Shown: positions 17,481-57,170 of the stretch, one piece after another
Layout of the letters: each line of letters opens with the position of its first letter
Numbering within the stretch: the stretch's first letter is position 1
From: Mesorhizobium sp. WSM2240
GTDB lineage: Bacteria > Pseudomonadota > Alphaproteobacteria > Rhizobiales > Rhizobiaceae
Direction: 5' to 3'
Assembly: GCF_040438645.1 (NCBI RefSeq)
Contig: NZ_CP159253.1
Coordinates: 558,001-622,000 of the forward strand
DNA: 64,000 nt
Translations under genes and position numbers: made by a program
Notes under the pieces: generated by a model
What the model was told of the DNA's origin: nothing
Database searches by the model: none
Seen by the model: the letters and a program-made list of their open reading frames with translations, nothing else

Positions 17481-19223
17481 TCAGAGACGCTTGATCTCGA
17501 TGCCGTATTTCCTCAGCATGTAGCCAATTTGGCGCGGCGTCAGTCCAAGCAGGCGAGCCGCCTTTGCCTGCACCCAGCCACAGCTTTCCATGGCCGCGAT
17601 GACACGCTCGGGATCGGTCACCTTCGCACCAGTGAAAGGGGTTGCGCCGGCAGGAGCTAGAGGTGTCTGATAGCCCACGACAGGCGGGGCCGCAACGGCG
17701 GGCGAAGTAGCGGCCTGACCCGGCGGCGTGGACGTCTTCACTGGCCCCGGTACGGTCGGCCCAGGTTGCAGCACCATGTTGTCCGATCCGCTCCTCCACA
17801 GCCGCGCGGAAAGGCACTGGCCGTGAAAGCAGGCAAAGTCGTTACGGGTGATTGATGATCCCTGCGCCAAAACCGCCGTCCGGTTGACGCAGCTTTGGAG
17901 CTCGCGGATATTGCCGGGAAATTCGCAATTCATCAGACACTCAAGCGCATCCGCCTCGAAAACCAACGTACGGCCGTTCTCGTTGTTGAATTTCCTGAGG
18001 AAGTCAGCGGCGAGGAGCGGAATGTCGCCGCGCCTTTCACGTAACGGCGGCACCAGCAAGGGAATCACGCTGAGTCGATAATAGAGGTCGGAGCGGAATT
18101 CCTTTCGTTCAACCGCCTCTTCCAGGTTCTTGTTCGTGGCGGCAATCACGCGAACATTGACCTTGATGGTCTGGTTGCTGCCGACGCGCTCAAACTCCCC
18201 CTCCTGCAGCACACGCAGGAGTTTTGCCTGGAACGAGGCGGAGATCTCACCGATCTCGTCCAGAAACAACGTCCCCTTGTCGGCGACTTCAAAACGCCCC
18301 TTGCGTGAATTGATCGCACTGGTAAAGGCACCCTTCTCATGACCGAACAATTCGGATTCCAGGACTGTCTCGGGGAGAGCCGCGCAATTTAGCCTGATAA
18401 ACGGCCGGTTAGCGCGTGGCGACAGGTCGTGAATGGCCTCGGCGATCCGCTCCTTCCCGGTACCGGATTCGCCCCGCAACAGAACCGGGAGGCTGCACTT
18501 GGCAACGACCGGGAGTTCCTCGAGCAGCGTGTTCAGCGCCGGGCTGTCGCCAACGATCCCCTTCACGTGAACCTTCTTACGCACCCGCGCGGGGGGCTCG
18601 GAGAATTGCTGTTGCAGCTGGTCCTTATCCGGCACCGCTCGCTCGCGATCGCAGGCAACCAGGCGATGCAGCTTCACTGTCTGCCCCACAATGTTCGCCA
18701 CTATGGTAAGCAGCTGGACGTCAAAGTCGAGCGGGAACGTTGACCTGTCGTCAAGGATGCGATCGATGGCCAGCGTGCCCACCACATTCGCATCGACGCG
18801 AATGGGAACGCCGATGAAAGACACCCGTCTACCGTCGGAAGCCCCGAGCACGCCTATGTTGGTGGCACTGAAAGCGGGATGCACCGCTATATTCTCGGCG
18901 ACGAGCGGCTTGCCCGTCGTCACAATCTCGTCGACTACCCTCTGCGCCAAGCCCCGCAGGTAGCGCTCATCGCAGCCTTCGTTCCGGCCTGCGCCTTCGG
19001 CACTGTCAAGTATGCTATCACTGTCGGGCAGAAAGATGATCCCGTGCCGCATCTGCACAAACGATCCTAGGAGATCGACCACTTTGGCCAACGTGACATC
19101 GAGCCGGGACGGAGCTGGATCGGTGAGAACTTTCGATATTTCGGAGATGACGGCAAGCGCGCTTTCGAGCGACAGCTCCATAGGGGCTGCGTCATTTGTC
19201 TCGGACTTTGCTACGTGCAGCAC
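17481..19223 (-). CDS. nifA2: Nitrogen-fixation regulator NifA (second copy, next to fixV)
   Basis: A 580-residue sigma-54 activator. It has an N-terminal GAF domain (~25-185), an AAA+ domain with Walker A GESGTGKE and ELFGHEKGAFTSA, and a C-terminal helix-turn-helix (WVQAKAARLLGLTPRQIGY). The rhizobial oxygen-sensing cysteines are all present with spacing C-x11-C-x19-C-x4-C, so oxygen-sensitive activity is expected. The sigma-54 contact loop reads GAFTSA, not the canonical GAFTGA found in the other copy. The start is GTG 19223 with GGGAG 6 nt upstream. In M. loti R7A, nifA2 lies downstream of fixV and is the copy essential for fixation; the same order here supports the name. Transcription probably depends on the FixV site at 19436. 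Confidence 0.92.
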   Translation of the reverse strand: MLHVAKSETNDAAPMELSLESALAVISEISKVLTDPAPSRLDVTLAKVVDLLGSFVQMRHGIIFLPDSDSILDSAEGAGRNEGCDERYLRGLAQRVVDEIVTTGKPLVAENIAVHPAFSATNIGVLGASDGRRVSFIGVPIRVDANVVGTLAIDRILDDRSTFPLDFDVQLLTIVANIVGQTVKLHRLVACDRERAVPDKDQLQQQFSEPPARVRKKVHVKGIVGDSPALNTLLEELPVVAKCSLPVLLRGESGTGKERIAEAIHDLSPRANRPFIRLNCAALPETVLESELFGHEKGAFTSAINSRKGRFEVADKGTLFLDEIGEISASFQAKLLRVLQEGEFERVGSNQTIKVNVRVIAATNKNLEEAVERKEFRSDLYYRLSVIPLLVPPLRERRGDIPLLAADFLRKFNNENGRTLVFEADALECLMNCEFPGNIRELQSCVNRTAVLAQGSSITRNDFACFHGQCLSARLWRSGSDNMVLQPGPTVPGPVKTSTPPGQAATSPAVAAPPVVGYQTPLAPAGATPFTGAKVTDPERVIAAMESCGWVQAKAARLLGLTPRQIGYMLRKYGIEIKRL

Positions 19224-19435
19224 GACGGCGTCTCCCGGACACTTTGGTCGGATTCGCTGGTATTGTCTTGCATGTCATCCTCGCTCTCAAACCACGGAAC
19301 CGATGCTCGCGGCATTTGCACCTGCGGCGCCGTCGGGCGGGTAGATTGTCTCGACCAGGCATTGGCACCGAAGTAGCGATTGACAGGCACCAGCACGAGC
19401 GTCTTCGCTCCGAGGGAGGACGTCAACCGCACTAT
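19224..19435 (-). pseudogene. Relic of the TIM-barrel isomerase gene between fixV and nifA2
   Basis: The minus strand reads SLGAKTLVLVPVN near 19375-19420. This matches GGKALVLVPVN in the intact isomerase at 26540-27358, and the DNA match continues into the leader: both have GTTCGATTGAC- or GTGCGGTTGAC-like sequence and CCTCCCTC right after the operator. Here that leader joins directly to codons from about one third into the gene, so the start and first third are deleted, and the coding match ends soon after VPVN. It shows that an isomerase gene once lay between fixV and nifA2. Confidence 0.75.
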
Positions 19436-19451
19436 CTTTCATTTGCGAAAG
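19436..19451. promoter_or_regulatory. Candidate FixV operator upstream of nifA2
   Basis: An inverted repeat CTTTC-N6-GAAAG (minus strand CTTTCGCAAATGAAAG) lies 37 bases beyond the fixV stop and 213 bases before the nifA2 start. The identical 16-mer occurs at 26443-26458 in front of the intact isomerase gene. Flanking bases are also conserved, including an upstream CTATCAT-AGCGCC block. LacI/GalR proteins bind such short palindromes. Assignment to FixV is inference from position and from the R7A system. Confidence 0.6.
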
Positions 19452-19487
19452 AAAACTCGGCGCTTATGATAGAGCCTTTCATTGCTC

Positions 19488-20516
19488 TCAAATATTTTCC
19501 GGCAGATAGATGTCGAACGGCAGAAATGTCTGCCCCGGCGGCTCCGCGGCCCCGGTCTTAATGGCCCGGGGCATCAGCGTCATTAGCTCCTGGCAAAGCC
19601 GGGGCAATGGCGTAGCGACCGCCATAGTTATGATGTCATCTGCGAGCGCCGCCCGCGACTCCGGCGTGATTTCATTCACGATCGCGACGAGACCCCGACC
19701 TTTGCCCTCCTCGCGGAGCGCCGAGATGGCGCCCTCCATACCCCCGCCAGCCACATAGAAGCCGACGAGATCCGGTTGCCGCTGCATGAGACTCAGCGTG
19801 GTTTCGTAAGTGATCTGCCGCAGCTCAAGGTTCACGACCGTATCGAGCACCTCGAAACCCGGCGCGTTCTCACGGAAATAGGAACGAAAACCGTTGTCGC
19901 GTAGCTCTTGCCCCTGGAACCGATGGCTGCCGACGAAGACTGCCACCTTGCCGGGCCGTGCGATTTTGGACAACATCCAAGCGGCTGTCCGTCCGACCTT
20001 GCGATTGTTGAGGCCGATATAACCCTCGCGCACGCCGGCGGCGAAGTCGGAAAGCAGCGAGAAAACCGGAATGCCTTTCGCCTTGAGCTCCTCGACCGCT
20101 GTCGTGATTTTCGGGTGGTCCGGCGCGACCATGGCGATTGCGTGGCAGCGTCCGCCAAGGTCCATGAGGAGATCGATCACATCTCCCGGCGCATTCGAGG
20201 GTGCAAATTCGATGCGTGGAATGCCGTGGAAAGACTGGGCCAAACTGACCGCCGCTTCGACCTCGCGCGCGAAATCTTGGTAGAAATGCTGTGCGGGTTT
20301 TCTCAAGATGAAGCCCAGCCGATATTGCGGCAGGTCACGCTGCAAGCGCTGCTTAATGAGGCCGGCAGCATGATACCCAATATCGTGGGCGGCCTTGAAT
20401 ACGCGTCGCGCAGTCTCCTCCCGCACCGGATGTCGGGCGTTCAAAACCCGATCGACAGTAGCCACGCTGACTCCGGCTTCTCGGGCAAGATCGGCAATTG
20501 TAGGACGCCTGGCCAT
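19488..20516 (-). CDS. fixV: LacI/GalR-family regulator FixV
   Basis: A 342-residue regulator. Residues 1-60 form the LacI helix-turn-helix and hinge (TIADLAREAGVSVATVDRVL). The remainder is a periplasmic-binding-protein-like sensor domain (about 65-335) with conserved NEITPESRAALADD and TFLPFDIY at the end. In M. loti R7A the fixV product, encoded upstream of nifA2, activates nifA2 in symbiosis, possibly in response to an inositol derivative. The same order is seen here: fixV, palindromic site, nifA2. A LacI-family protein acting as an activator is unusual. The ligand is not deducible from sequence, but a sugar-isomerase gene is associated with both copies of the site. Confidence 0.88.
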   Translation of the reverse strand: MARRPTIADLAREAGVSVATVDRVLNARHPVREETARRVFKAAHDIGYHAAGLIKQRLQRDLPQYRLGFILRKPAQHFYQDFAREVEAAVSLAQSFHGIPRIEFAPSNAPGDVIDLLMDLGGRCHAIAMVAPDHPKITTAVEELKAKGIPVFSLLSDFAAGVREGYIGLNNRKVGRTAAWMLSKIARPGKVAVFVGSHRFQGQELRDNGFRSYFRENAPGFEVLDTVVNLELRQITYETTLSLMQRQPDLVGFYVAGGGMEGAISALREEGKGRGLVAIVNEITPESRAALADDIITMAVATPLPRLCQELMTLMPRAIKTGAAEPPGQTFLPFDIYLPENI

Positions 20517-21146
20517 GGTCCAATTCTGATAACGGTCACGAGGGAATGCAGAATTCTGCTCTGTCTGATGCGCCTGCGGGCTTGTTTCTCCCGCGATCCG
20601 GCGGAGAGGCGTATGAAGTGCTCGCCGGCTACTCCATCATCGCGAGGCTGATTGCCTGTCATTCAGCCAATCACCCCCGAGGAGGAAGCTCGCTAAGAAA
20701 CCGATCGACAGCGCAATCAGCGCGGCGTCAAAGACAGTTCTCAAGTCCACCAGGCGGCAAGCGGTCGAGCAGCGCCCTTTACTCACGATATTTCATCGCA
20801 GGTTTCATTCTGCGCGATGCTCCTTCGCCGAGCCAGAATAAGCCTTGGCGATTCGGCAAGCTGACCCGGCCGGCAGAAGAACAGCTTCGCGTCGAGCGTC
20901 CGCGCCGATGTTGCCGAAGAAGCCGTCCTGTTTGCGGGGATGATCCGATCTGCGGCATTTCTGCTGCTCCTATCGATGCTGGGTGGAGGAAGCTTGTGTA
21001 GAAGGCTGCCTGCCTCCTGTTTGGGCGGGTGGCTGGGGTGGACAGTCGAGCCGGTGCTGCTGCCGGCGCTTACTCGTTGATAGACAACGCATTCGACGGA
21101 CAGCACTCGGGCGCAACAGGCGGGTCGGTGTGCGTTTCATTTTTGT
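20517..21146. other. Intergenic region between fixV and dctA
   Basis: No gene seen in about 630 bases separating the fixV start from the dctA 3' end. I found no further copy of the CTTTC-N6-GAAAG site and no sigma-54 promoter here. Short frames lack ribosome sites. Confidence 0.4.
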
Positions 21147-22607
21147 TTAGAGCGCCCTTACTTTTGCACCCCCCGAATTTAGCGCTTCTGATTTCATCGG
21201 CCCGCGAATCTCTCTTTCGAGCCCTGCGGGTTGAATGTGTCGTGTTTGTGAGCAGACCGGCGATTTTGACTCGGCGCGGCCCGCGATCAGTGGTTGGCCG
21301 GTCAATGTCTCGGCAAGCTGATGACCGCCGAAGGCGGCTTCCAACTGCGCTTGGTCCAATTCGCCTTCCCAGCGGGCTACGACGAGCGATGCCACCGCAT
21401 TACCGATGAAATTCGTCAGCGCCCGGCATTCCGACATGAAGCGGTCGATGCCAAGGATCAGAGCCATGCCAGCAACCGGAACAGTCGGAACTACGGAGAG
21501 CGTAGCGGCCAGCGTGATGAAGCCGGCACCGGTGACGCCTGCTGCACCCTTCGAGGAAAGCATCGCGACAAGCAGCAAGAGGACCTGATCGCTAATTGAT
21601 AGATCGGTATTCGTCGCCTGCGCGATGAAGAGGGCCGCGAGCGTCATATAGATATTGGTGCCGTCCAGATTGAAGGAGTATCCGGTCGGGATGACGAGAC
21701 CCACGACCGAGCGCTTAGCGCCGGCCTTCTCCATTTTTTCCATCAGAGAGGGCAGCGCCGCCTCCGACGACGACGTTCCGAGGACCAGCAGCAGCTCTTC
21801 CTTTATGTAGCGAAGGAGAGAAAAGATCGAGAAGCCGTTGTAACGACATACCGCGCCGAGAACTCCGAACACGAAGAGGAAGGCTGTGAGATAGAACGTC
21901 CCGACCAGCATGGCGAGGTTGACCACCGAGCCGATGCCGTATTTGCCAATCGTGAAAGCCATTGCGCCGAAAGCGCCGACCGGCGCGGCCTTCATCAGGA
22001 TGCTGACGAGCTTGAAAATGGGGGCGGTAAGCGCCTGTAGAAAGCTTGTGACCGGCTTGCCCTTCTCCCTGACCATCGCCAAGGCGATGCCGAACAGAAC
22101 CGAGAAGAACAGGACCTGCAGAATGTCGCCTTCCGCGAAGGCGCCGACGATCGTAGATGGGATGACGCTCATCAGGAAGCCCGTCAGCGACTGCTCGTGG
22201 GCGTTGGCGGCATAGGTATTCACCGCCTGGATGTCGAGCGAGGCCGGATCGATGTTGAGGCCGGCGCCGGGCTGGACAATATTGGCGACAATGAGGCCCA
22301 CGATAAGCGCGAGGGTCGAGAAGGTGACGAAATAGACCATTGCCTTGCCGGCAACCCGGCCGACCTTCTGGAGATCGTTCATGCCGGCAATGCCGGTCGC
22401 CACCGTCAGAAAAATAACAGGCGCGATGATCATCTTGACAAGCTGGATGAAGGCATCGCCGAGCGGCTTCAGGCTCTCGCCGATCTCGGGATAGAAATGG
22501 CCGAGCGCAATGCCGAGCAGTATTGCGGCAAGTACCTGCACGTAAAGCTGAGCATAAAGGGGTTTGCGGGGCGCAACGCTTGCGCTGTGGGCTTGTGGTG
22601 TCAACAT
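21147..22607 (-). CDS. dctA: C4-dicarboxylate transport protein DctA
   Basis: A 486-residue inner-membrane sodium/proton-coupled symporter of the DAACS family that imports succinate, malate and fumarate, the main carbon supply of bacteroids. Visible family motifs are the first helices ([20 protein letters not shown]), the serine-rich re-entrant loop [33 protein letters not shown], and [15 protein letters not shown]. Known DctA proteins are about 440 residues; the extra ~45 hydrophilic C-terminal residues after [10 protein letters not shown] are unusual. The start ATG 22607 has GGGAG 8 nt upstream. It is divergent from dctBD and controlled by sigma-54 and DctD sites in the shared intergenic region. 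Confidence 0.96.
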
Positions 22608-22706
22608 GTATTTCTCTCCCTGACCGGATTGGGGGCGGGCTCTTCCTCGCTTTCCCGTTGCTTCTCCCGTCGCTGCGCTCCGGTCGGACGCTGCTGCGAT
22701 GTTGAT

Positions 22707-22722
22707 CGCAAGAGCCGTGCCA
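22707..22722 (-). promoter_or_regulatory. Sigma-54 promoter of dctA
   Basis: The minus strand reads TGGCACGGCTCTTGCG, a full match to the -24 (TGGCAC) and -12 (TTGC) elements with correct spacing. The start point expected ~12 bases downstream leaves a leader of roughly 90 bases before the dctA ATG. RpoN dependence of dctA is established in rhizobia. Confidence 0.9.
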
Positions 22723-22784
22723 AACCAAAACCGAGGGTTATCGCCCCCGCCTCGGCCTTTTTTTGAAACGTGCGCAGCAAGATT

Positions 22785-22832
22785 GTGTGGTTTTCCGCAC
22801 TAATCGCCTTTCTTTTTGGCGGAACCCCGCAC
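22785..22832. promoter_or_regulatory. Tandem DctD-binding sites between dctA and dctB
   Basis: Two similar elements lie about 70-110 bases upstream of the dctA promoter: GTGTGGTTTTCCGCAC at 22785-22800 and GGCGGAACCCCGCAC ending at 22832. Both end in CCGCAC with a GTGTGG- or GGCGG-like partner arm. In other rhizobia DctD binds two tandem sites at this position. The second site ends 12 bases before the chosen dctB ATG, which argues against an earlier dctB start. Confidence 0.65.
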
Positions 22833-22844
22833 TATGGTTCCTCA

Positions 22845-24737
22845 ATGGTCGGTCAGAAGAATGCGATTGCAGAAGACAAGATTGGCAAAGGCACCTTCCA
22901 GCGCGTGCCATTGGTCTTCTCTGGCAGATCGGCGGTCAGTAGATCTCTCTGGCTTGTGGTTTTGCTTGCGCTGCTTGGTGCAGCTCTCGGTTTTGTCGTC
23001 CTTGCAACGGGCCGCATCGCCACCACCAGAGCCGAAGATGTCTTACGCGACCGTGCTCTTGCCGCGCTTCCCCTTGCAGCCGACAGTTTGAAAGGGGACG
23101 TCGAGAAGCAGAGAGTGATTCCGCTGGTCCTGGTACGCGACGGTGCAGTTCAGGAGATGCTTCGCAGTCCGAGCACTGCCATCAAAGCCGCGCTCGAAGA
23201 CAAGCTTCGCGCCATTGGGCGCGACGCCGGCTCCTCTATGATCTACGTCATCAATCCTGAGGGCACAGCGGTTGCCGCGAGCAACGCCGGCGAACCGACC
23301 AGTTTTGTCGGAACCAATTACCGCTTTCGTCACTACTTCACTGAGGCGATGAAGAATGGTACGGCTATGCAATATGCGCTCGGCACGGTTAGCGCGCGGC
23401 CGGGGCTTTATCTGTCGAGCCGGGTCGATGGGCCGGAGGGGCCGCTCGGTGTGGTCGTGGTGAAGGTAGAGCTCAACCGGGTCGAGTCGAGCTGGCTGCG
23501 GACCCGCTTCTTAGTCTTCACGACCGATGAGCGCGACGTTGTCCTTGCCACGAGCGTGCCCAAATGGCGTTTTGCCGCTCTCTCACCGCTTTCCGAAGAA
23601 GAAATGGTAACCGCCCGCGATCGTCTACAGCTATCTGGCGCGCCTTTCGAGCCGGTGCCGCTTTCCCGCCCCGGCGGTAACCTGGTCACCGCAAGTCCTG
23701 CGAGTCGATCAGCCAGTTTCGTTGCGGTTTCGCAGGAAGTCGGCGAAGCGCTTCCGGGCTGGCGCCTGTACTTGCTCATTCCCGCTGACACCGAGATCTC
23801 CTCGGCGGCGATGACAGCACGCGTGACGACGCTGCTTGCCCTCGTTCTCATTGGATTCGTCGCTTTCGTCATTGTTCGACGGCGGCGGTCGATACGGCAG
23901 CGGCAAGATGCGCTTGTGTTCATGAATGCGGAACTGGAGCATCGCGTCAAGTTGCGAACTGCGGAGCTGCAGCGCTCGAACGAAGCGCTCGCCGGTGAGA
24001 TCGGCGAGCGCGAGAACGCGGAGGCAAGAGTGCGCCGCCTGCGCGATGAACTCGCCCAGGCGAACCGCTTGTCAATACTGGGACAGATTGCGGCCGGGGT
24101 CGCCCACGAGATCAACCAGCCTGTGGCCGCGATCCGCACCTATGCCGAAAATGCCGCACAATTCCTTCAGAGCGGCCGGTCGCACGACACCGCCGAGAAC
24201 CTGAAGTCGATCGTCGCCATGACAGACAGGATCGGGACGATCACCGAAACGCAAAGGTCCTTCTCCCGCCGCGCCAGCGGATCTGTGGAACCAATACCAG
24301 CGGAAGACGCGATCGATGGCGCCCTGTCGCTTCTTTCAGGCCGAATTCGCGATTCCGGGGTAACGATCGAACGAATGCGGATCGACCCATCTCCCATGGT
24401 TATGGCGAGCCGCATACGACTGGAACAGGTCCTCGTCAACCTTCTCCAGAACGCGCTTGACGCCCTGAAGGATCAACCAGAGCCCCGGGTCGAGATCGCG
24501 CTCGCCGAGAACAGGAAAATGGTCGCGATTTCCATTCGGGACAACGGCCCCGGCCTTGCCCCCGACATTCGCAGGAGCCTCTTCATGCCGTTCATCACCA
24601 ACAAGGAAAAGGGCCTCGGTCTTGGTCTGGTCATTTCGGAAGAGATCGCATGTGAGCTCGGCGGCTCATTGCGGCTCGACAATGCGGGCCACGGGAAAGG
24701 GGCTTCCTTCACCGTCGAGCTGAGGCGCGCGGCATGA
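22845..24737 (+). CDS. dctB: C4-dicarboxylate sensor histidine kinase DctB
   Basis: A 630-residue membrane sensor kinase. It has a first transmembrane helix ([20 protein letters not shown]), a large periplasmic double-PDC sensor region (~60-325), a second helix near 340 ([15 protein letters not shown]), and a coiled linker. The DHp box carries the phospho-accepting histidine in [16 protein letters not shown], and the ATPase domain has [13 protein letters not shown] and DNGPGLAP. The ATG at 22845 is chosen over an upstream frame opening because the DctD sites occupy that DNA and the length then fits the family. Periplasmic C4-dicarboxylates stimulate phosphotransfer to DctD. The stop overlaps the dctD start (ATGA). 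Confidence 0.94.
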
Positions 24738-26113
24738 GCGCTGAAAAAGGGCCGGTCATTTTTGTTGACGATGACGAGGATCTGCTGCGAGCCGCCACGC
24801 AGATGCTGAAGCTTGCCTCCTTCTCCCCGAGCATTTGCGGTTCGGCCGAGGCCGCGCTCGCCAGAATCGACGAGAACTTCGATGGCCCCGTTGTGAGCGA
24901 CATCCGCATGCCCGGGATGAACGGCCTTCAGCTCTTCGAGCGAGTAAAGGCGATTGACCCGGACATTCCGGTCGTCCTGATCACCGGGCATGGCGACGTC
25001 GAGCTGGCCGTTGCCGCCATCAAGGACGGCGCCTACGATTTTATCTTGAAGCCCTATGCGAGCGACCGCCTTTTAGCGACGCTGCATCGCGCTTCGGAAA
25101 AACGGCGCCTGGTCCTGGAAAACAGACGACTTAGGGATGCCGTCGTCCGATCCGCGGGCGATATGCCGCTCATCGGGGAGGGGCCGACTATGAGCCGGCT
25201 GCGCGAAACGCTCCGCCAGATCGCCGATACCAATGTGGACGTCCTCGTGGAAGGCGAGACGGGCACGGGCAAGGAGGTGGTTGCGGATCTGCTTCACCGC
25301 TGGAGCAGTCGACGTACGAATCCCTTCGTCGCGCTGAATTGTGGAGCGCTGCCGGAAAGCGTCATCGAAAGCGAACTATTCGGGCACGAGGCGGGCGCCT
25401 TTACAGGCGCCCAAAGGCGCAGGATCGGCCGCATCGAGCATTCGAATGGCGGGACTCTCTTTCTCGACGAAATCGAGTCGATGCCGCCTGCACTCCAGGC
25501 GAAGCTCCTGAGGGTGCTTGAGACCCGGCAGATCACGCCGCTCGGCACCAATGAAACCCGCAGCATCGATCTTCGTGTAGTCTCGGCTACGAAGGCCGAT
25601 CTCGGTGATCCGGCCGCCCGCGGAGATTTTCGGGAAGACCTCTATTACCGGCTGAATGTCGTGACGCTCCGTATCCCGCCGCTTCGCGAACGGCGCGAAG
25701 ATATCCCGATCCTATTTGGGCATTTCTTGGAACGCGCATCCAAACGCTTCGGCAGACCAGTCCCGGATATGAGCGCTGCCGTGCGCGGTCACCTAACGAG
25801 CCACCACTGGCCGGGCAATGTCCGTGAACTCGTGCATTTCGCCGATCGGATTGCATTGGGACTTGGAGAGGTGGGCGCGCTCGATGTACCCGATCGAGAG
25901 GAAGAAGCGGTGTCAAACCTCCCCTTGTCCGAAAAGGTCAGCCTTTATGAAGCGAGCGTCATCCGCGACGCGTTGCAGGAATGTGGCGGCGACGTGAAGC
26001 GGACGATCGAAATTCTGGGAGTTCCTCGCAAGACCTTCTACGATAAGCTGAACCGCCACAGGATAGACTCGGCCGATTATCGAAAGAATCGCGAGTCTTC
26101 GAAGCCTTGTTGA
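24734..26113 (+). CDS. dctD: C4-dicarboxylate response regulator DctD (sigma-54 activator)
   Basis: A 459-residue NtrC-type regulator. The receiver domain (1-120) has the acidic pair in IFVDDDED and the phospho-acceptor Asp in [12 protein letters not shown]. The AAA+ domain (~145-380) has Walker A GETGTGKE and the sigma-54 loop GAFTGA within [14 protein letters not shown]. The C-terminal helix-turn-helix is in [19 protein letters not shown]. It overlaps dctB by 4 bases, so the pair is translationally coupled. It activates the divergent dctA promoter at 22707. Confidence 0.96.
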
Positions 26114-26143
26114 CCTCGCAGATCCCGGAAAGACTGCGGTGAC

Positions 26144-26163
26144 ATGGGGCTGGTGGGCCCCAT
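26144..26163 (+). terminator. Possible transcription terminator after dctBD
   Basis: A 7-bp stem ATGGGGC / GCCCCAT with a 6-base loop begins 31 bases after the dctD stop. No run of T follows, so it would be a weak intrinsic terminator at best. Confidence 0.4.
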
Positions 26164-26204
26164 GAAGCGCGCCCATCTCGGCGCGCCTTGTGGAGGGCAA
26201 CGGT

Positions 26205-26415
26205 CAGGATTTCGTCGCGACGTGAATGAAATCACGCCGGATTCGACATCAGCACTCTAGACGACGACGTCATGATGGCGCTCGCCATACCACTTCTCCG
26301 GCTTTGCCAGGAGCTGATGCCGCTGATGGCCTGGACTTTCGAGATCGCACACCGGGAGGCCCGGGGCAGACATTTCTGCCGTTCGAGATCTATGCCGGAA
26401 AAATACGAAACTGAT
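26205..26415 (+). pseudogene. 3' relic of a second fixV copy
   Basis: The + strand contains the C-terminal end of a FixV-like protein in shifted frames: NEITPDSTSAL (26226 onward, against NEITPESRAAL in fixV), then ALAIPLLRLCQELMPLM (against ATPLPRLCQELMTLM), then PGQTFLPFEIYAGKIRN (against PGQTFLPFDIYLPENI). A stop codon and frameshifts interrupt it, and the helix-turn-helix and most of the sensor domain are absent. It is followed directly by the same palindromic site and leader that follow the intact fixV. Confidence 0.85.
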
Positions 26416-26442
26416 GAAAGTCTATCATGAGCGCCAAGTTTC

Positions 26443-26458
26443 CTTTCGCAAATGAAAG
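26443..26458. promoter_or_regulatory. Candidate FixV operator upstream of the TIM-barrel isomerase
   Basis: CTTTCGCAAATGAAAG, the same 16 bases (in gene orientation) as at 19436-19451. The flanking CTATCATGAGCGCC block is also shared. It lies 82 bases before the isomerase ATG. This second occurrence, with the coding sequence around it diverging or decaying, supports a selected binding site. Confidence 0.6.
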
Positions 26459-26539
26459 AAAGTTCGATTGACTTTCCTCCCTCATTCCATGGCAGAAGCC
26501 GTCGGCTGCGAACGGGCCCCGCTTCATGGAAGGAAAACT

Positions 26540-27358
26540 ATGCGCCAGGCATCGCCACGCATTGCACTCGAACACATGCTGGCTCCCCGACTTGACGTCA
26601 GAGAGTTTTTCGCGCTTGCCCGCGACCATGGCATGACAGAAGTCGACATCCGCAACGATTTTCGCAGCAATGCGGTTGAATGCGCGGTGCCGGCGGCGGA
26701 TGTCCGGTCTGCCGCCGCCGAAGCGGGCGTCACGATTATCTCCGTCAACGCTTTGCACCGCTTCAATGAGTGGACTGCCGCACGCGAAGCCGAGGCGAGC
26801 AAGCTCGGCGATTATGCGGCGGCCTGCGGAGGCAAGGCGCTCGTGCTGGTGCCGGTCAATGACGGTTCGTGGTCCGCCAATGACGAGCGCCAGGGCAATC
26901 TCCGCGTCGCTTTGAAGGCGCTCAAGCCGATCCTCCAGTCGCGCGGTCTGATTGGTCTTATCGAGCCGCTGGGGTTCCACACCTGCTCGCTGCGATCGAA
27001 GAAGGAAGCGGCTAACGCCATTGCCGCGGTTGATGGTCAGTGCGCCTTCCGCCTCGTGCACGACACCTTCCACCACACGCTCGCCGGGGAGGGGTTCTTC
27101 TCCTGCGAGTTGACCGGTCTCGTGCACATTTCAGGCGTCAACGATCCGACATTCTGGATTCACCCGGATCGCGTCCTGGGAGGTTCTGACAATGGCAGCC
27201 AAATCCGGGCGCTGCTTGATGGCGGCTATGAGGGACCCTTCTCGTTCGAGTTAATCGGGGAAACTCACACGTTGGACGACCTCGCAGGCGCATTTTCCGC
27301 CAGCATTGGTCTCATCGAACACCGGCTATTGACGCGAGAACCCGGTAGAGGGCAGTGA
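26540..27358 (+). CDS. Sugar-phosphate isomerase/epimerase-type TIM-barrel protein
   Basis: A 272-residue AP-endonuclease-2-like TIM barrel, the fold of IolE/IolI inositol-pathway enzymes and hydroxypyruvate isomerases. Putative metal-binding residues fall in LIGLIEPLGF (Glu), RLVHDTFHHTL (His/Asp), LVHISGVNDP (His) and PFSFELIGET (Glu), in the order normal for this family. The start ATG 26540 has AAGGA 6 nt upstream. A candidate FixV site lies just upstream, and a relic of a paralogue lies between fixV and nifA2. That suggests the enzyme acts on the same inositol-like compound that FixV may sense; this is inference. Confidence 0.82.
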   Translation: MRQASPRIALEHMLAPRLDVREFFALARDHGMTEVDIRNDFRSNAVECAVPAADVRSAAAEAGVTIISVNALHRFNEWTAAREAEASKLGDYAAACGGKALVLVPVNDGSWSANDERQGNLRVALKALKPILQSRGLIGLIEPLGFHTCSLRSKKEAANAIAAVDGQCAFRLVHDTFHHTLAGEGFFSCELTGLVHISGVNDPTFWIHPDRVLGGSDNGSQIRALLDGGYEGPFSFELIGETHTLDDLAGAFSASIGLIEHRLLTREPGRGQ

Positions 27359-27395: not shown

Positions 27396-28310
27396 TCACA
27401 CGGCAGTCATGCCGGACGCCTCGTGCAACATTACTTCCCGCATCCAGATGCTTGCCGGATCATTGTTGTGAAGGGTCGGCCATTGGACTGCCTCGGTGAA
27501 TGCGGGAAGTGGCAGCGGAAGTTCGATGATCTGCAGGGGAAACGTATGTTCGAAGTGCTTGACCAGCCGGAAGGGCATGGTCGCTATACGATCTGTGCCT
27601 GATACCAAAGGCGGGATCATGCTGAAGGCCTGGACGACGACCTCGACACGTCTCTTAAGGCCATGCTCAAGCAAAAACCATTCCTCGATGCAGGGCTTCA
27701 GCAAACGCCCGAACTTGGCCACGACGTGCCTCATCGACATGTATCTTTCGAATGTAAGCTGCCGCGGCATCTGCGTGTTCTTCGGGCAGCCCACGCACAC
27801 GAGCCTCTCGTCGAACAGCGTCAATCTTGGATGCGCGCCCGACAAGAACAATTCCGGAAGAATTAGAAAATCGACGTCACCGCGCCGGAGCAGCTCATCG
27901 GGGTTGTCGCCGAGAGGCAGCATTTCGAAGCTGACGGCGGGTGCTTCGCGTGCAACGCGCTCCACGACCTTTTCAAAAAAAACCAGTGTGACGAAATCGG
28001 AAAGAATAATCCTAAAGCGGCGATCGGATTGAGCCGGGTCAAACGGATCGCTAGAAATAATCGAGCACTGGATGTGCAGGAGCGCGTCGCGAACTGCCGG
28101 GGCGAGTGCTTGTGCGCGCGGTGTTAGAATACGCTCGCGGCCGCTCATGGCAAATAGTTCATCGCGGAAAAAATCGCGCAGCCGGGTGACCGCCGCACTC
28201 ATGGCCGGCTGACTCAGGTTTATGCGGCGCGCCGCCTCTGTGAGGTTGCGCTCGGTCAGCAGTGCGTCGAGCACAACCAGAAGATTTAGATCAAGCCCTT
28301 TGAACCGCAT
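27396..28310 (-). CDS. nodD: Nodulation regulator NodD (copy A)
   Basis: A 304-residue LysR-family activator that binds nod boxes and responds to plant flavonoids. The start [18 protein letters not shown] is the NodD signature. The helix-turn-helix spans residues ~20-45 ([19 protein letters not shown]) and the ligand-binding domain fills 90-300. It is nearly identical over most of its length to the copy at 31398-32366, but the C-terminus is shorter (ends EASGMTAV) and the middle differs slightly ([17 protein letters not shown]). It is transcribed away from a partly degenerate nod box at 28318. Downstream of that box is only a nodA relic, so its regulatory targets are probably elsewhere. Confidence 0.96.
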
Positions 28311-28510: not shown

Positions 28511-28712
28511 TTGGGAAGGCAACAGTGGCCACTAGGTCACGACCTAACCGATGCGGTCCCTCTTACAGCGTTGTGCACGCCACGGATTTCAACCGTGTTC
28601 CCGATTCTCCCGCTTGGCGGCGGGCACCTGGCAGCATCTGCGACCATATGCGAAATCGAGGGCGAGATTGCACATCTTTAAGGAGGGCGAACAAAGTAGA
28701 GGGGAGCGCCGA

Positions 28713-31037
28713 ATGGAAGCCGAAGACACCGAAGCCGGGCGCTCCGACCTGGAACAGGCGGCGCTTTTCTTTCACAAGCACCCTACGCCCGGCAAACTGG
28801 AGATTCAGGCGACGAAACCGCTGGGAAATCAGCGCGACCTGGCGCTCGCCTATTCGCCGGGCGTCGCCGCCCCCTGCCTCGCGATAAGAGACGATCCGGC
28901 GACCGCCGCCGACTACACGGCGCGCGCCAATCTGGTGGCGGTGATATCCAACGGTTCGGCTGTGCTCGGCCTCGGCAATATCGGGCCGCTCGCCTCCAAG
29001 CCGGTGATGGAGGGCAAGGCGGTCCTGTTCAAGAAATTCGCCGGCATCGACGTCTTCGATATCGAGATCGACGCGCCGGAGATCGAGCGCATGGTCGAGA
29101 CGGTGGCGGCGCTGGAGCCGACCTTCGGCGGCATCAACCTGGAGGACATCAAGGCGCCGGAATGCTTCGAGGTTGAGGAGCAGCTCAAGGCGCGGATGAA
29201 GATCCCGGTCTTCCACGACGACCAGCACGGCACGGCGATCATCGTGGCGGCCGCGGTGCTCAACGGGCTGGAATTCGCAGGCAAGAAGATCGAGGACATC
29301 AAGATCGTCACCTCGGGCGCGGGAGCGGCGGCGCTCGCCTGCCTCAATCTGCTCGTCCTGCTCGGCGCGAGGATCGAAAACATCTGGGTCACGGACCGTT
29401 TCGGCGTCGCCTACAAGGGCCGGCTCGACGAGATGGACCGCTGGAAAGACCCCTATGTGAAGGACACCGAGGCACGTACGCTGGCCGACGTGATTACCGG
29501 CGCTGACGTGTTCCTCGGCCTGTCCGCGGCGGGCGTGCTGAAACCCGAACTGCTGAAGCATATGGCGGAAAAGCCGCTGATCCTGGCTTTAGCCAACCCC
29601 AACCCCGAGATCATGCCGGATGAGGCCCGCGCGGCCAGGCCAGATGCGATGATCTGCACCGGCCGCTCCGATTTTCCCAACCAGGTCAACAACGTACTCT
29701 GCTTTCCCTACATCTTCCGCGGGGCGCTGGATTGCGGCGCGAGCGCGATAAACGAGCTGATGAAGATGGCGGCGGTGCGGGCCATCGCCGCATTGGCGCG
29801 GGAGGAACCGTCCGATGTCGCCGCGCGCGCATATTCCGGCGAGACGCCGACCTTCGGCCCGGATTTCCTGATCCCTTCGCCCTTCGACCCCCGGCTGATC
29901 CTGAGGATCGCGCCGGCGGTTGCGAAAGCCGCCTGCGAAACCGGCGTCGCCACGCGGCCGATCACCGATTTCCCTGCCTATATCGACCGGCTCAACCGCT
30001 TCGTCTTCCGCTCCGGCCTGGTGATGAAGCCGGTGTTCTCGACGGCCAAGACGGCAGCATCAAAGCGGGTAATCTATGCCGACGGCGAAGACGAGCGGGT
30101 TCTTCGCGCCGCCCAGGTGGTGATCGAGGAAGGCATCGCCGAGCCGATCCTGATCGGGCGGCCGCATGTCGTCGACGTGCGGCTGAAGCGCTACGGGCTG
30201 CGCATCAAGTCGGGAACGGATTTCGAACTGGTCAACCCGGAGGACGACCCGCGCTACCGCCACTATGTCGACCTCCTGATCGAATTGGGCGGCCGCCGCG
30301 GTGTGACGCAGGAAGCCGCACGCACCCTGGTGCGCACGAACACCACCGTGATCGCAGCGCTGGCGCTGAAGCGGGGCGACGCCCATGCGATGATCTGCGG
30401 GCTGGAAGGCCGGTTCGAGCGCCATTTGCGCAATGTCTCGCTGATCATCGGGCCGCGCGAGGGTGTTCGCGACCGCGATCTCTCGGCGCTTTCCATGCTG
30501 ATCTCGACGCGTGGCGTCACCTTCTTCACTGATACCTATGTGACGGTCGATCCGACAGCGGAAGAGATCGCCGAAATGACCGTGCTGGCGGCCGAGGAAA
30601 TCAGCCGCTTCGGCATCGAGCCTAAGGCGGCTCTGCTGTCGCATTCCAATTTCGGCTCGCGTGACTCCCCGAGCGCGCTGAAGATGCGGCAGGCGGCGGA
30701 GATCCTGAAGAAGATAGCGCCCGACCTGCAGAGCGACGGCGAAATGCATGCCGATTCGGCGCTGTCCGAATTGCTGCGCCAGCGCGTCTTTCCGCATTCG
30801 GCTCTGAAGGGCGAAGCCAATCTTCTGGTGTTTCCGAACCTCGATTCGGCCAATCTGGCAATGACCACGGTCAAGCAGATGATGGACGCGCTGCATGTCG
30901 GACCGATCCTGCTCGGCACCGACAAGCCGGCGCACATCCTGACGCCGTCGGTGACCTCGCGCGGCATCGTGAACATGACGGCGCTGGCGGTCGTCGAGGC
31001 ATCGCAGAAGGCTGTCGCAACGCTGAGGACGGGTTGA
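28713..31037 (+). CDS. maeB: Malic enzyme fused to a phosphotransacetylase-like domain
   Basis: A 774-residue enzyme converting malate to pyruvate and CO2 with NAD(P). The malic-enzyme half (1-430) has [24 protein letters not shown] and [20 protein letters not shown]. The nucleotide-binding fold begins [14 protein letters not shown]. The C-terminal half (~450-770) is the phosphate-acetyltransferase-like domain, thought to be regulatory or structural, typical of Rhizobiales. The ATG 28713 is chosen with GGGGAG 8 nt upstream; an earlier in-frame ATG would add 54 residues unlike the family. The cofactor (dme or tme type) is not resolved. With DctABD it supports malate use in bacteroids. The gene is inserted between two nodD copies. 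Confidence 0.94.
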
Positions 31038-31137: not shown

Positions 31138-31401
31138 ATGGCGGGCAGGCGAGCGAAAAGACAAGCCGTTGCGCTGGGAGCCATCGCACTCACGGTTGCG
31201 ACCGCCGTGCCGGCTTTCGCCGACACCTGGCTCTGGCGTCAACTCGGAGTTGATCGCCGCAGCGGTCGCTGTGCCCTGCGCAACATGACGACGCACTCCT
31301 TCTCCGTTCTCGACGGTGAGCGAGGAGGTTGGGCAGCGAACGGCCTAGGTCAACGCCAGGCCATTTTGCTGTACTTCACGCACACGAACTCCCGCTCCTA
31401 G
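31138..31401 (+). CDS. Possible small exported protein, 87 aa
   Basis: The N-terminus [20 protein letters not shown] followed by VPAFADTW looks like a signal peptide with an AFA cleavage site near residue 28. The remaining ~58 residues ([15 protein letters not shown] onward) match nothing I know. The preceding sequence has GGGAGGGGG about 12-20 nt upstream of ATG 31138. It overlaps the nodD copy B 3' end by 4 bases, facing it. It could be a genuine small gene or chance; evidence is thin. Confidence 0.3.
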
Positions 31402-32366
31402 ACCAAGGGCAGCCCCGAGCTGAATACATTAGAAGCGCGCGTGACGTCCTTGGCCTTGCGTGGAGTAGCCATGCGGGACGCCTCCTGCAACATTATCTCC
31501 CGCATCCAGATGCTTGCCGGATCATTGTTGTGAACGGCCGGCCATTGGACTGCCTCGGTGAATGCGGGAAGTTGCAGCGGAAGTTCGATGATCTGCAGGG
31601 GAAACGTATGTTCGAAATGCTTGACCAGCCGGGAGGGCATGGTCGCTATGCGATCTGTGCCTGATATCAAAGGCGGGATCATGCTGAAGGCCTGCACGGT
31701 GACCTCGACACGTGCCTTGAGGTCATGCTCACGCAAAAACCATTCCTTGGGCTTCCGCAAACGCTCGAACTTAACCGAAACGTGCTTCATTGACATATAT
31801 TTCTCTACCGTAAGCTGCCGTGGCAACTGCTTGTTCCTGGCGCAGCCCACGCACACGAGCCTCTCGTCGAACAGCGACAATCTTGGATGCGCGCTCGACA
31901 AGAACCATTCCGGAACAATGACAAAATCGACGTCACCGCGCCGGAGGAGCTCATCGGGGCTGTCGTCGAGAGGCAGCATTTCGAAGCTGACGGCGGGTGC
32001 TTCGCGTGCAACGCGCTCCACGACCTTTTCAAAAAAAACCAGTGTGACGAAATCGGAAAGAATAATCCTAAAGCGGCGATCGGATTGAGCCGGGTTAAAC
32101 GGATCGCTAGAAATAATCGAGCACTGGATGCACAGGAGCGCGTCGCGAACTGCCGGGGCGAGCGCTTGTGCGCGCGGTGTTAGAATACGCTCGCGGCCGC
32201 TCATCGCAAATAGTTCGTCGCGGAAAAAATCGCGCAGCCGGGCAACGGCCGCACTCATGGCCGGCTGACTCAGGTTGATGCGGCGCGCCGCCTCTGTGAG
32301 GTTGCGCTCGGTCAGCAGTGCGTCGAGCACAACCAGAAGATTTAGATCAAGCCCTTTGAACCGCAT
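31398..32366 (-). CDS. nodD: Nodulation regulator NodD (copy B, adjacent to the nod operon)
   Basis: A 322-residue LysR-type flavonoid-responsive activator. The true start is ATG 32366 ([18 protein letters not shown]); the 13 codons open upstream would lie inside the nod box. The helix-turn-helix is in residues 20-45 and the sensor domain in 90-300. It differs from copy A mainly between residues 195 and 225 and by an 18-residue longer C-terminus. It is divergent from the nod operon with an intact nod box in the spacer, the classic arrangement in which NodD binds the box, activates nodBCIJHPQ and may control its own synthesis. Confidence 0.97.
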
Positions 32367-32373
32367 GTCAGTT

Positions 32374-32420
32374 ATCCATAATGCGGATGCGTCAAATCGA
32401 AACAAACGATTTTACCGGTT
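32374..32420 (+). promoter_or_regulatory. Nod box of the nodBCIJHPQ operon
   Basis: All conserved blocks are present in order: ATCCATAATGCGGATG, then ATCGAAACAAACGATTTTAC. Spacing between blocks equals that of the copy at 28318, and the distal GATTTTACC element is kept. It starts 7 bases upstream of the divergent nodD ATG. This is the NodD binding site and promoter region for the operon, which begins 266 bases downstream with the deleted nodA. Confidence 0.93.
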
Positions 32421-33508: not shown

Positions 33509-34870
33509 ATGAACCTGTTCGCTGCAATCAGTATCGTCGCCGTGTCGTGCTATGCACTGCTCTCGACTCTCTATAAGGGCATGCAGGCGATTTATGCTCG
33601 GCCAGCAAAAGCGGCACCGGCGTCGGACGACCTAGTCGGCTCCGGCCTCTGGCCGAGCGTGGATGTCATCGTCCCCTGCTACAATGAGGATCCGCGCACG
33701 CTCTCGGCGTGCCTCGCTTCCCTTGCACACCAGGAATACTACGGCAAATTGCGGGTGTATGTAGTTGATGACGGTTCTGGAAATCGCGAAGCGGTCGCGC
33801 CGGTACACGACAGCTATGCGGAGGACGCGCGATTTGAGTTCATTCTGCTCCCCGAGAATGTCGGCAAGCGCAAAGCGCAGATCGCCGCCATACGCCGCTC
33901 ATCTGGAGATTTGGTGCTCAACGTCGACTCGGACACGACACTTGCGCCCGACGTTATCAGGAAACTTGCACTGAAGATGCAGGATTCAGGGATCGGCGCG
34001 GCCATGGGCCAGTTGACGGCAAGCAACCGGAGCGACACATGGCTGACTCGGTTGATCGATATGGAGTACTGGCTGGCTTGCAATGAGGAGCGTGCGGCAC
34101 AGGCTCGCTTCGGTGCCGTCATGTGCTGTTGCGGCCCATGTGCCATGTACCGCCGGTCTTCGCTCCTTTCACTGCTAGCTCGGTACGAGACGCAGCTGTT
34201 TCGGGGGAAGCCAAGCGACTTCGGTGAGGACCGCCATCTTACGATCCTCATGCTGGAAGCAGGCTTTCGAACCGAGTACGTTCCGGACGCAATCGCGGCA
34301 ACAGTCGTTCCCGATACGCTAGGGCCGTATCTGCGCCAACAACTCCGCTGGGCACGGAGCACTTTCCGGGATACGCTGCTTTTGCTTCGGCTACTGCCTG
34401 GCCTCGATCGCTATCTCACGTTGGACGTGATCGGCCAGAATCTCGGCCCGCTGCTTCTCACCCTGACGGTGGTAGCGGGACTCGCGCAGCTCGCACTCAC
34501 AGGTACAGTGCCTTGGTCGGCATGCCTGATGATTGCAGCCATGACCATCATTCGATGCACCGTTGCAGCTTTTCGTGCTCGCCAACTTCGATTTCTCGCA
34601 TTTTCTCTGCACACATTCATCAACATCTTTCTATTGCTGCCCTTGAAAGCCTATGCGTTGTGTACACTGAGCAATAGCGATTGGCTGTCGCGCAAGACCA
34701 CCAGCCTACCCAACAGGGAGAAAAAGCAGGAGCAGGTCATCGCGAAACACACGATGGCCGGACCAAACGCTACGGGAAGCTCGGAAGTTGCCGACTCGAT
34801 TCGCAGGACGAATCTGCCGCGCGATCCATCAAGGTTGGTTGAGTCTGGCAGCGCTTGCAGCGGCAAGTAA
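33509..34870 (+). CDS. nodC: N-acetylglucosaminyltransferase NodC
   Basis: A 453-residue membrane glycosyltransferase family 2 enzyme (chitin-synthase type) that builds the Nod-factor backbone from UDP-GlcNAc. An N-terminal helix is followed by the catalytic domain. It shows VIVPCYNEDPRTL, the acidic triad in VVDDGSGN and NVDSDTT, GEDRHLT, and QQLRWARST (the QxxRW processivity motif). Three or four C-terminal helices follow. It starts 15 bases after nodB. The last ~45 hydrophilic residues are rich in Ser and Lys. The family's usual length is 410-450. Confidence 0.97.
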   Translation: MNLFAAISIVAVSCYALLSTLYKGMQAIYARPAKAAPASDDLVGSGLWPSVDVIVPCYNEDPRTLSACLASLAHQEYYGKLRVYVVDDGSGNREAVAPVHDSYAEDARFEFILLPENVGKRKAQIAAIRRSSGDLVLNVDSDTTLAPDVIRKLALKMQDSGIGAAMGQLTASNRSDTWLTRLIDMEYWLACNEERAAQARFGAVMCCCGPCAMYRRSSLLSLLARYETQLFRGKPSDFGEDRHLTILMLEAGFRTEYVPDAIAATVVPDTLGPYLRQQLRWARSTFRDTLLLLRLLPGLDRYLTLDVIGQNLGPLLLTLTVVAGLAQLALTGTVPWSACLMIAAMTIIRCTVAAFRARQLRFLAFSLHTFINIFLLLPLKAYALCTLSNSDWLSRKTTSLPNREKKQEQVIAKHTMAGPNATGSSEVADSIRRTNLPRDPSRLVESGSACSGK

Positions 34871-49739: not shown

Positions 49740-51221
49740 TCAGGCCGTCGCCGCCAGCGGCTGGACCCCAAACTCGGCGGCATAAAGGGCGCTGATTGCG
49801 GTCTCGATGTAGTCATGGCCATAAGCGTCGGTCGCTCCGATTCCAGCTTCCGCGAGCCGTTCCTTGGGGCAATCTCCGATCTTGGCGCACAGCACGACGT
49901 CTAGACCTTCAAGCGCAGCGATGATGCCGTCGAGAATGGCCTTTTCGCCCCAGCCGCCGAGGCAATACTGCTCGACCTTGCGATGCCCGACGAAGCTGAT
50001 CCCCTTGGGCGAGGCCTCATAGACCTGGAATTCCTTGGCATGGCCGAAGTGTTCGTTAACACGCCCGCCGCCCTTAGTCGCCACCGCGACGAGAAGGGAC
50101 TTGCACGAGCCCGCTGTCTTGAGCATTCCAAGCGCCTCTCTCCTGGCCGCCACGTGATCGCGACGCTCGTGCGCGACCACCTCCCGATAGGCCTCGCGCT
50201 TGGTGGCGTCGTAAGTGACCTCGCTAGGAATCCGGTCGAGTGTGAATTCCTGGCCACCATCCTCGCCGAGCAGGCCGACCGCGTCGGCCCGGCACTGCCG
50301 GCAATGGCGCATCAACTTGGCGCCGCCTTCGAGACGATCCTGAAGAGCCTTCAGCTCCATTGCAGTTGGGCCGCGCTGCCCGGTCACACCGTAGTGCGTA
50401 CCGTGCGCCGGATCGGAAATCAGCGGCATGACGTTGTGCAGGAACGCGCCGCGCTCCCTGACCCATTCATTCACCTCGATCAGATGCTCGTCGTTCACTC
50501 CGGGGATCATCACCGAATTGATTTTGGTCAGGATGCCGCGCGCGGTCAGCATCTCCAGGCTCAACATCTGCCGCTCGTGCAGGATCCGGGCGGCTTCGAT
50601 GCCGGCGTAGCGACGCTGGTCGTAAAAGATCCAGGGATAGATCTCTGCGCCGATTTCAGGATCGACCATGTTGATCGTGATCGTCACGTGGTCGACATTC
50701 ATTTCGGCAAGCTCGGCGACATGGTCCGGCAGCGCGAGCCCGTTAGTGGAAATGCAGAACTTGATGTCGGGTATTTCTCTGGCGATTCGTTCGAACGTTG
50801 CCTTTGTCTTTTTCCAGTCGTAGCAGGCATCACCGGGTCCGGCGATGCCGAGTACGGAGAGCTGCGGCACTTCATTGGCGACCGTGATCACCTTGCGCAG
50901 CGCCTGGTCGGGGGTCAACTTTTCCGAAACGACTCCAGGCCGGCTTTCGTTGGCGCAGTCATATTTGCGGTTGCAGTAGTTGCACTGGATGTTGCAAGCC
51001 GGCGCGACTGCGACGTGCATGCGCGCAAAATAGTGGTGCGCTTCTTCTGAAAAGCAGGGGTGATCCTTGATCTTCTCCCAAACAACCGGATCCATGTCGT
51101 CCTGCTTTCCCGACAAGCCGCAGGATGAAGATGCGCAGCCACCCGATTGCGCGGTCGCCAGCAATTGGTCGGAGAATGTCGTGCTGGTCAGGCTCTGAAG
51201 CGAAACTATCGGTGCGGGCAT
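49740..51221 (-). CDS. nifB: FeMo-cofactor biosynthesis radical-SAM protein NifB
   Basis: A 493-residue enzyme that makes NifB-co, the Fe-S-carbide precursor of FeMo-co. The radical-SAM cysteines are in [15 protein letters not shown] (C-x3-C-x2-C), with further conserved Cys near the N-terminus and in [10 protein letters not shown]. The C-terminal ~130 residues form a NifX/NafY-like cofactor-binding domain ([19 protein letters not shown]). It is headed by a sigma-54 promoter at 51262 and a NifA site at 51351, and leads the fdxN-nifZ-fixU run. Confidence 0.97.
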
Positions 51222-51261
51222 CGAACGGCTCTGCTGCTGAGTGAACGTCGCAGTTCAAAGC

Positions 51262-51276
51262 GCAAGAGCTATGCCA
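51262..51276 (-). promoter_or_regulatory. Sigma-54 promoter of nifB
   Basis: The minus strand reads TGGCATAGCTCTTGC: -24 TGGCAT and -12 TTGC with the correct GG-N10-GC spacing. The predicted leader to the nifB ATG is about 30 bases. Confidence 0.85.
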
Positions 51277-51350
51277 ACTCAAAGAGTGGGTTCTAGCTCA
51301 CAAATTGGCTTTTCTTGTCGGATTCTGTCGGTATCGCGCCGACACAATTT

Positions 51351-51366
51351 TGTCGGGCTTCCGACA
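51351..51366. promoter_or_regulatory. NifA upstream activator site for nifB
   Basis: TGTCGGGCTTCCGACA, an exact TGT-N10-ACA NifA site, about 75 bases upstream of the -24 element. A second TGT...ACA pair nearby (51326-51344) has spacing 13 and is unlikely to count. Confidence 0.88.
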
Positions 51367-51459
51367 GTGGACAAGCGAACCGGGCCGCTAAGGACACACT
51401 GCGTTTGGGCAAGCAGAGTGTGAGGAACACTACTCAGACCCGACGTCTTAGGCACGCAC

Positions 51460-53226: not shown

Positions 53227-53362
53227 GGAAACACATCTCAAGGGTTGTCCAGGTGCTCCTCCCAAGCACCTTCTTGATAGTTCTGGCGATGTCGGTGTGA
53301 CACATTGCTGAAGCAACTTGGAGTGCACCACGGTTCACGCTCTTGAACAGTGCGTGCGCCAG

Positions 53363-53662
53363 TCATCCGAACTTGAAGAGGACACCGAAGCCGCCGCGCG
53401 GATAGTTCCACTCGATCTCGCCACTGGGCTCACACAAGACCCGGCAGGTGCCGCACTCCATGCAGCCGTCGGCGGTGATCTCCACTTGGCCTTTGTCGTT
53501 CACCTCATAGCATTTCGCCGGGCACACGTGGGTCAGGGCGAGCAGGTTGGCGCTCGGCCTCTCGTGCGGTCGCACTTTGATATGCGGTCGGCCCGGATCG
53601 ACCAGGTAGCGGTTCTGGAAAAGCTTGTCCTCGACGCGTAACTTCGTCACTGCGATGGTCAT
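53363..53662 (-). CDS. fixX: Ferredoxin-like protein FixX
   Basis: A 99-residue ferredoxin-like partner of FixABC. The conserved cysteines lie in CPAKCYEVN and [11 protein letters not shown]. FixX takes electrons from FixC in the electron-bifurcating complex that supplies low-potential electrons to nitrogenase. It begins 12 bases after the fixC stop. Confidence 0.96.
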
Positions 53663-53674
53663 CCCGTCTCTCCC

Positions 53675-54982: not shown

Positions 54983-54991
54983 GTGTCTTCC

Positions 54992-56095: not shown

Positions 56096-56110
56096 TGTCT
56101 GCTCCTGGCG

Positions 56111-56962: not shown

Positions 56963-57016
56963 TGGCGGTTCCCTACGCTCCTATCCGGATGCGGGCTTGG
57001 CAGTTCATCTCCTTCG

Positions 57017-57032
57017 TGCATTATCTGTGCCA
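57017..57032 (-). promoter_or_regulatory. Sigma-54 promoter of fixABCX
   Basis: The minus strand reads TGGCACAGATAATGCA: a perfect -24 TGGCAC, then -12 ATGC at correct spacing (consensus TTGC). It lies about 55 bases upstream of the fixA ATG. Confidence 0.82.
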
Positions 57033-57119: not shown

Positions 57120-57170
57120 CTGTCGCGTTGCAACGCTTCCCGACATTGTCGCGTCGCAACCGCGTCGCGC

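Follow-up and report, generated by a model that had tools for sequence, protein, structure and literature searches.

The nifA2 gene of the 64,000-nt window (the whole stretch of DNA analysed here) lies directly downstream of fixV on the same strand (17481-19223 and 19488-20516, respectively), and this raises the question of how a nitrogen-fixation gene came to stand behind a gene for a LacI-type regulator. The core of an answer, capture of a FixV-controlled isomerase promoter by nifA2, was already published for Mesorhizobium loti R7A in 2013: according to the text of PMC3538637, fixV is needed for nifA2 expression in R7A nodules, fragments of an isomerase gene with similarity to the msi119 region lie in the fixV-nifA2 spacer, and the promoter maps upstream of these remnants. 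Sullivan, Brown and Ronson (2013) proposed that fixV and its promoter were translocated to nifA2, with WSM1271 possibly ancestral (PMC3538637). The FixV control of nifA2 that a preliminary description of the window took as known from R7A was confirmed from this source. The R7A region is arranged as in the window, with fixV beside nifA2 and isomerase remnants in the spacer; however, the spacer measures 264 nt to the GTG at 19223 in the window and 558 in R7A (PMC3538637).

The window also carries nodC, nifB, nifA1, fixC-like, electron-transfer-flavoprotein and nifS genes (33509-34870 and 49740-58855) and is therefore a symbiosis region. Its relevant features are as follows.

17481..19223, minus strand: nifA2, 580 codons, start GTG at 19223; TIGR01817 at 696.9 bits against a cut-off of 528.85
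19302..19358 (about), minus strand: remnant of the isomerase C-terminus directly 5′ of the ancestral nifA2 start; LVETIYPPDGAAGANAASI, 23.5 bits against 14.2 for the reversed control
19379..19412, minus strand: isomerase remnant, codons 97-107 (GAKTLVLVPVN); 88% to 26827-26860
19436..19451, minus strand: FixV box, presumed operator, upstream of nifA2; present in this exact form at two sites in the genome
19488..20516, minus strand: fixV, intact LacI/GalR-family regulator of 342 aa; PF00356 and PF13407 above cut-off
21147..22607, minus strand: dctA (PF00375), within the segment whose orientation varies between lineages
22770..24737, plus strand: presumably dctB; matches a gene of locus L110 annotated as a sensor histidine kinase
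24734..26113, plus strand: presumably dctD; matches a gene of L110 annotated as a sigma-54 dependent regulator
26144..26402, plus strand: fixV 3′ remnant (fixV nt about 761-1022); 76.5% over 264 columns to intact fixV
26443..26458, plus strand: FixV box, presumed operator, upstream of the isomerase; same form as the nifA2-side box
26540 (ATG)..27358, plus strand: intact TIM-barrel isomerase, msi119 homologue; PF01261 at 67.1 bits, cut-off 31.1
27396..28310, minus strand: nodD-like LysR gene (PF00126/PF03466) on the outer flank, convergent with the isomerase; 70-72% to genes annotated nodD2 in L111

Solved-structure searches returned only distant LacI-type, periplasmic-binding and two TIM-barrel relatives. 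The text of PMC8627217 places fixV on all ICESyms and, beside nodD2 in all of them, a gene named putative inosose isomerase, a label that we adopt as putative for the Msi119-type isomerase; in what that text says of the ICESym core genes, no regulatory link or rearrangement is described. A second nodD-like LysR gene lies at 31398-32405 (88% identical to the first over 301 aa), with a malic enzyme-like gene (28551-31037) between the two.

The preliminary description held that two related regions face each other in inverted orientation across dctABD, and this was borne out. Aligned at the DNA level, the reverse complement of 19412-19756 matches 26144-26483 at 77.5% over 351 columns with small indels; the score is 281, whereas the highest-scoring of 300 dinucleotide shuffles reached 33 and the wrong strand gave 26, and significant similarity extends beyond the palindrome. 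A separate 34-nt isomerase block is also common to the two copies (19379-19412 and 26827-26860, 88%). The 16-bp palindrome is identical in both, as had been noted (CTTTCGCAAATGAAAG at 19436-19451 on the minus strand and 26443-26458 on the plus strand), and the intact fixV, GAKTLVLVPVN relic and nifA2 of copy 1 and the intact isomerase of copy 2 are likewise as described. Inverted repeats thus flank the fixV-dctABD segment, supporting duplication of a module of fixV 3′ end, operator, leader and isomerase in inverted orientation around dctABD. The fixV remnant of copy 2 was also found; its length is about 87 codons, however, not the roughly 65 first given. It starts at fixV nt 710 in camelthorni (L009) and at about nt 761 in the window, placing the break within about 50 nt of one position in two species, and upstream of it both hold only chance-level matches to fixV. 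The further claim, in-place loss of a different gene from each of two complete copies, finds no support here, as copy 2 comprises only the 3′ third of fixV.

The palindrome is one instance of a CTTTCATNNATGAAAG-type box and precedes a -35-like site, TTGACT. A search of the window for CTTTCRCAAATGAAAG at ≤2 mismatches returned only the two boxes, with 0.11 matches expected, and the 6.7-Mb genome contains no third exact match to CTTTCNNNNATGAAAG. Genome-wide, the box search gave 20 matches (the 18 others with one mismatch each), against 13 for a reversed-pattern control. Among nifA2 loci, 31 of the 34 scanned have a box with ≤3 mismatches upstream of nifA2, including all 13 loci of the M. loti group, where it is without mismatch. 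The nifA2 box of L009, CCTTCGCAAATGAAAG, lies beyond the 3-mismatch limit, and that of L015 carries a 1-nt insertion, which places it outside the 31. In L117, the third exception, the box (18162-18177) is CTTGCACGAATGCAAG, with changes that match in both half-sites. On the isomerase side, a box with ≤3 mismatches is present in 19 of 32 loci and absent from all 12 M. loti-group isomerases scanned (L081-L092), nine of which have a shorter palindrome, CTCATAAATGAG, upstream and three of which do not; nor was a box found within this limit at the second camelthorni isomerase (L093). At nifA2 the box persists throughout the comparison, and at the isomerase it persists outside the M. loti group, which has lost it there; with perfect nifA2 boxes and lost isomerase boxes, FixV control in that group may have passed wholly to nifA2.

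The conservation of the box argues for its use. In 14 nifA2 leaders (L066 and 13 of the type II order described below, 3 of them from contigs without fixV), mean column conservation is 0.92 for the box, 0.90 for the -35-like site (scored one base off) and 0.91 for the nifA2 start region, versus 0.41 for the fixV remnant, 0.60 for the isomerase remnant and 0.72 for the rest of the leader. The box is therefore as conserved as the nifA2 start while the remnants around it decay. In 34 further loci, the box occurs within 320 nt after fixV in 20, at +39 to +44 in 16 of these, with 29 plus-strand matches elsewhere in the same loci. Most leaders have 9 nt between the box end and the conserved TTGAC(T); the M. 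loti group has 19 nt, approximately one helical turn more. A position upstream of the -35-like site is where an activator would be expected, and FixV would bind the box directly. In M. loti CJ3sym (L029), counting from the start codon that agrees with the 558-bp spacer of R7A, the box spans -522 to -507 and falls within the -536/-426 interval that R7A requires to be Fix+ (PMC3538637). The fixV-nifA2 spacer of the window has both the conserved box and the -35-like site. By the scan of the sequence after fixV, three Sinorhizobium FixV homologues (71-74%) have no box, and hisC rather than an isomerase is annotated downstream of them.

What lies between the box and nifA2 may record the origin of the leader. 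Beyond the relic first described, the copy 1 spacer contains a second isomerase remnant at about 19302-19358, derived from the C-terminus. The equivalent remnant lies just 5′ of the nifA2 start in L013, where PFAESVYAPDDVAGAHAASIDF corresponds to PFAEEVHELDDLAGALAASIDF of the isomerase. Among 32 spacers, it is strong in 4 (30-34 bits versus 14 for reversed controls), in register in 21, several of them at control level, and not found in 11. Many nifA2 leaders carry remnants of both isomerase ends, which suggests that nifA2 began behind a whole isomerase gene, and nifA2 was probably the second gene of an isomerase-nifA2 operon. The suggestion that nifA2 sits behind the old isomerase promoter is supported, in line with the 2013 conclusion for R7A (PMC3538637). 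An in-frame isomerase-NifA2 fusion was considered and rejected: the frame is open in some type II genomes and interrupted by stops or frame changes in others. In camelthorni (L009, 11272-12874) the start of the isomerase reads on in frame into NifA2 at residue 40, and the nifA2 frame is broken near residue 160.

Comparison across genomes revealed two gene orders. A contig scan gave 67 fixV loci, to which some further loci were added for comparison; a wider search of 394 family genomes found 5 with a close FixV and added little. We tallied 40 loci with fixV, counting the window and three loci from other searches and excluding outgroup loci. The gene after fixV is nifA2 in 16, an intact isomerase in 16 and neither in 8, and dctA was scored upstream of fixV on the fixV strand in 37. 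In L009 dctA is present but fell outside the distance cut, and the remaining two loci, L040 and L109, show none. In type I (the window and L009 in full; also the M. loti group), the order is nifA2, fixV, dctA, dctB, dctD, fixV remnant, isomerase, nodD. In type II (WSM1271 and amorphae-like strains), it is nifA2, fixV remnant, dctB remnant where recognisable, dctA, fixV, isomerase, nodD. The inner fixV-dctA(BD) block is therefore inverted between the same flanks: nifA2 follows fixV in 16 loci and lies on the far side of dctA in 12 single-contig loci. Both outer flanks are on one contig in only 2 type I loci (the window and L009) and in 7 type II loci (L013, L015, L019-L021, L034 and L036). L023-L026 and L073 have nifA2 beyond dctA with the isomerase not in view, and were assigned to type II by nifA2 position, as no isomerase was found after fixV in L023-L026 and fixV is cut at the contig end in L073. 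L017, L022 and L040 were not assigned to a type. Three contigs without fixV (L097-L099) have the same nifA2-dctA order as type II. Twelve genomes of the M. loti group carry the isomerase-nodD part at another place in the genome, so only the nifA2 side is visible there. A further order, with nifA2 beyond nodD and a box at nifA2 in each, occurs on two plasmids (L066 and L109) and in L117. In nature, the opposite block orientations are found between species only, and we infer an inversion as the event behind them.

The FixV trees, built first on protein only and later on DNA with closer outgroups, place type II on one side of a branch with moderate support (84/87, 89/85 and 93/87). A single type I fixV clade is rejected on DNA (p-AU 0.0277 and 0.0065) and only marginally on protein (p-AU 0.059), and one change separates the types on the FixV, DctA and NifA2 trees. 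A leader tree was built with 24 rows, taken from 12 genomes. On it the type II-like nifA-side leaders group as a separate clade (99/100), and the two leaders of one genome pair in albiziae and camelthorni (97/93 and 98/98), where the within-genome copies are 93.7% identical over 603 nt and 90.1% over 414 nt, respectively. This pairing suggests that the inverted copies have undergone conversion or have exchanged sequence anew, and conversion would have blurred the breakpoints in these two type I genomes. In WSM1271 (L036), nifA2 is already preceded by the box (3 mismatches), the leader and isomerase-like remnants, and the capture would therefore be older than the split between the types.

The explanation that we consider likely as a whole begins with a FixV-controlled unit of fixV, FixV box, -35-like site and isomerase, part of which was copied in the opposite orientation across dctABD. 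In the copy beside nifA2, nifA2 would have followed the isomerase as the second gene of one operon, and an internal deletion would have gutted this isomerase and left the FixV box, the promoter and both gene-end pieces as the nifA2 leader. The other copy would have kept its isomerase beside nodD, behind the fixV 3′ remnant. Recombination between the inverted repeats would then have turned the fixV-dctA(BD) block on the branch between types I and II, so that fixV adjoins nifA2 in one type and the isomerase in the other, with the nifA2 promoter staying with nifA2 throughout. FixV, being diffusible, would activate the two promoters in genomes that retain both boxes. Of this history, the sequences themselves show the duplication, the remnants, the conserved box and the opposite orientations.

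The preliminary description had instead favoured reciprocal loss, which in its fuller form starts from two complete inverted modules: type I would have been left without the nifA-side isomerase and the nod-side fixV, and type II without either gene on the nifA side. Remnants of both genes do exist, and the single change between types on the trees would fit. However, loss in place leaves dctA unturned, yet dctA is inverted together with fixV relative to nifA2 and nodD in the other lineages; the truncated start of the copy 2 fixV remnant and the rejection of a type I fixV clade on DNA, marginal on protein, also speak against it, and we regard it as unlikely. The genomes do not show separate origins for the two regions, an outcome that would have undone the earlier interpretation, which as a whole is partly supported.

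Translocation of fixV with its promoter from a WSM1271-like order, the published view, would account for the intact fixV-isomerase unit in WSM1271 and most outgroup loci. The Rhizobium and Neorhizobium units indeed run fixV then isomerase, mostly with a box about 40 nt after fixV, and have no nifA2 or dct block in the flanks searched at the cut-offs used; some are described as divergent from the rhizopine mocD operon (PMC3538637). However, the box, leader and isomerase-like remnants are already at nifA2 in WSM1271, and on the FixV trees it is type II that forms one clade and type I that does not, with moderate support, which makes translocation quite unlikely. We give a similarly slim chance to the fixV-dctABD block being a recombining invertible segment, its inverted FixV-box repeats still exchanging in type I strains such as albiziae and camelthorni and both orders possible in populations on symbiosis islands, combined with a two-promoter FixV regulon tying the onset of nitrogen fixation and the isomerase to one sugar signal. 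A phase-variation-like switch, in which the block still flips within populations, is very improbable: the copies within albiziae and camelthorni are alike and pair on the tree, but gene conversion alone explains this, and a single orientation change suffices.

In the window strain itself, nifA2 control may be weakened. In the nifA2 leader, sequence is deleted from about 10 nt past the -35-like TTGAC, and a nearby stretch that relatives have is missing from the isomerase leader, so promoter activity is unsure in both. The ancestral nifA2 ATG at 19273 is out of frame and runs into a stop, and the GTG at 19223 remains behind GGGAG. NifA2 of the window is on a long branch of the NifA2 tree, and nifA1 is also present in the genome. 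The canonical NifA loop motif is GAFTGA, which the window NifA1 has; 30 of 31 NifA2 proteins, including that of the window and all 12 from the M. loti group, have GAFTSA. Since nifA2 of R7A is required for nitrogen fixation (PMC3538637), GAFTSA alone is no argument against function.

To the 2013 view the present analysis adds the conservation of the box, the remnants of both isomerase ends, the opposite orientations and the partial fixV of copy 2. In this survey of open-access text we found no mention in PMC3538637 of the box, of an inversion, of a fixV remnant beside the isomerase, of the isomerase C-terminus or of a FixV box upstream of nifA2 in WSM1271, and came across neither the inversion nor the box in PMC8627217 and PMC7643969. 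The suggestion that WSM1271 represents the state before capture is called into question, and under the model nifA2 should be controlled by FixV in the examined lineages, among them WSM1271. Mesorhizobium nifA2 would occupy the second-gene position of a sugar-enzyme operon and still bear the switch of that operon. This makes it possible to follow how a master nitrogen-fixation gene may have come under a carbohydrate-sensing LacI-type activator: operon partnership, the gutting of the partner gene and then, for M. loti and its group, disappearance of the box from the isomerase that survived.
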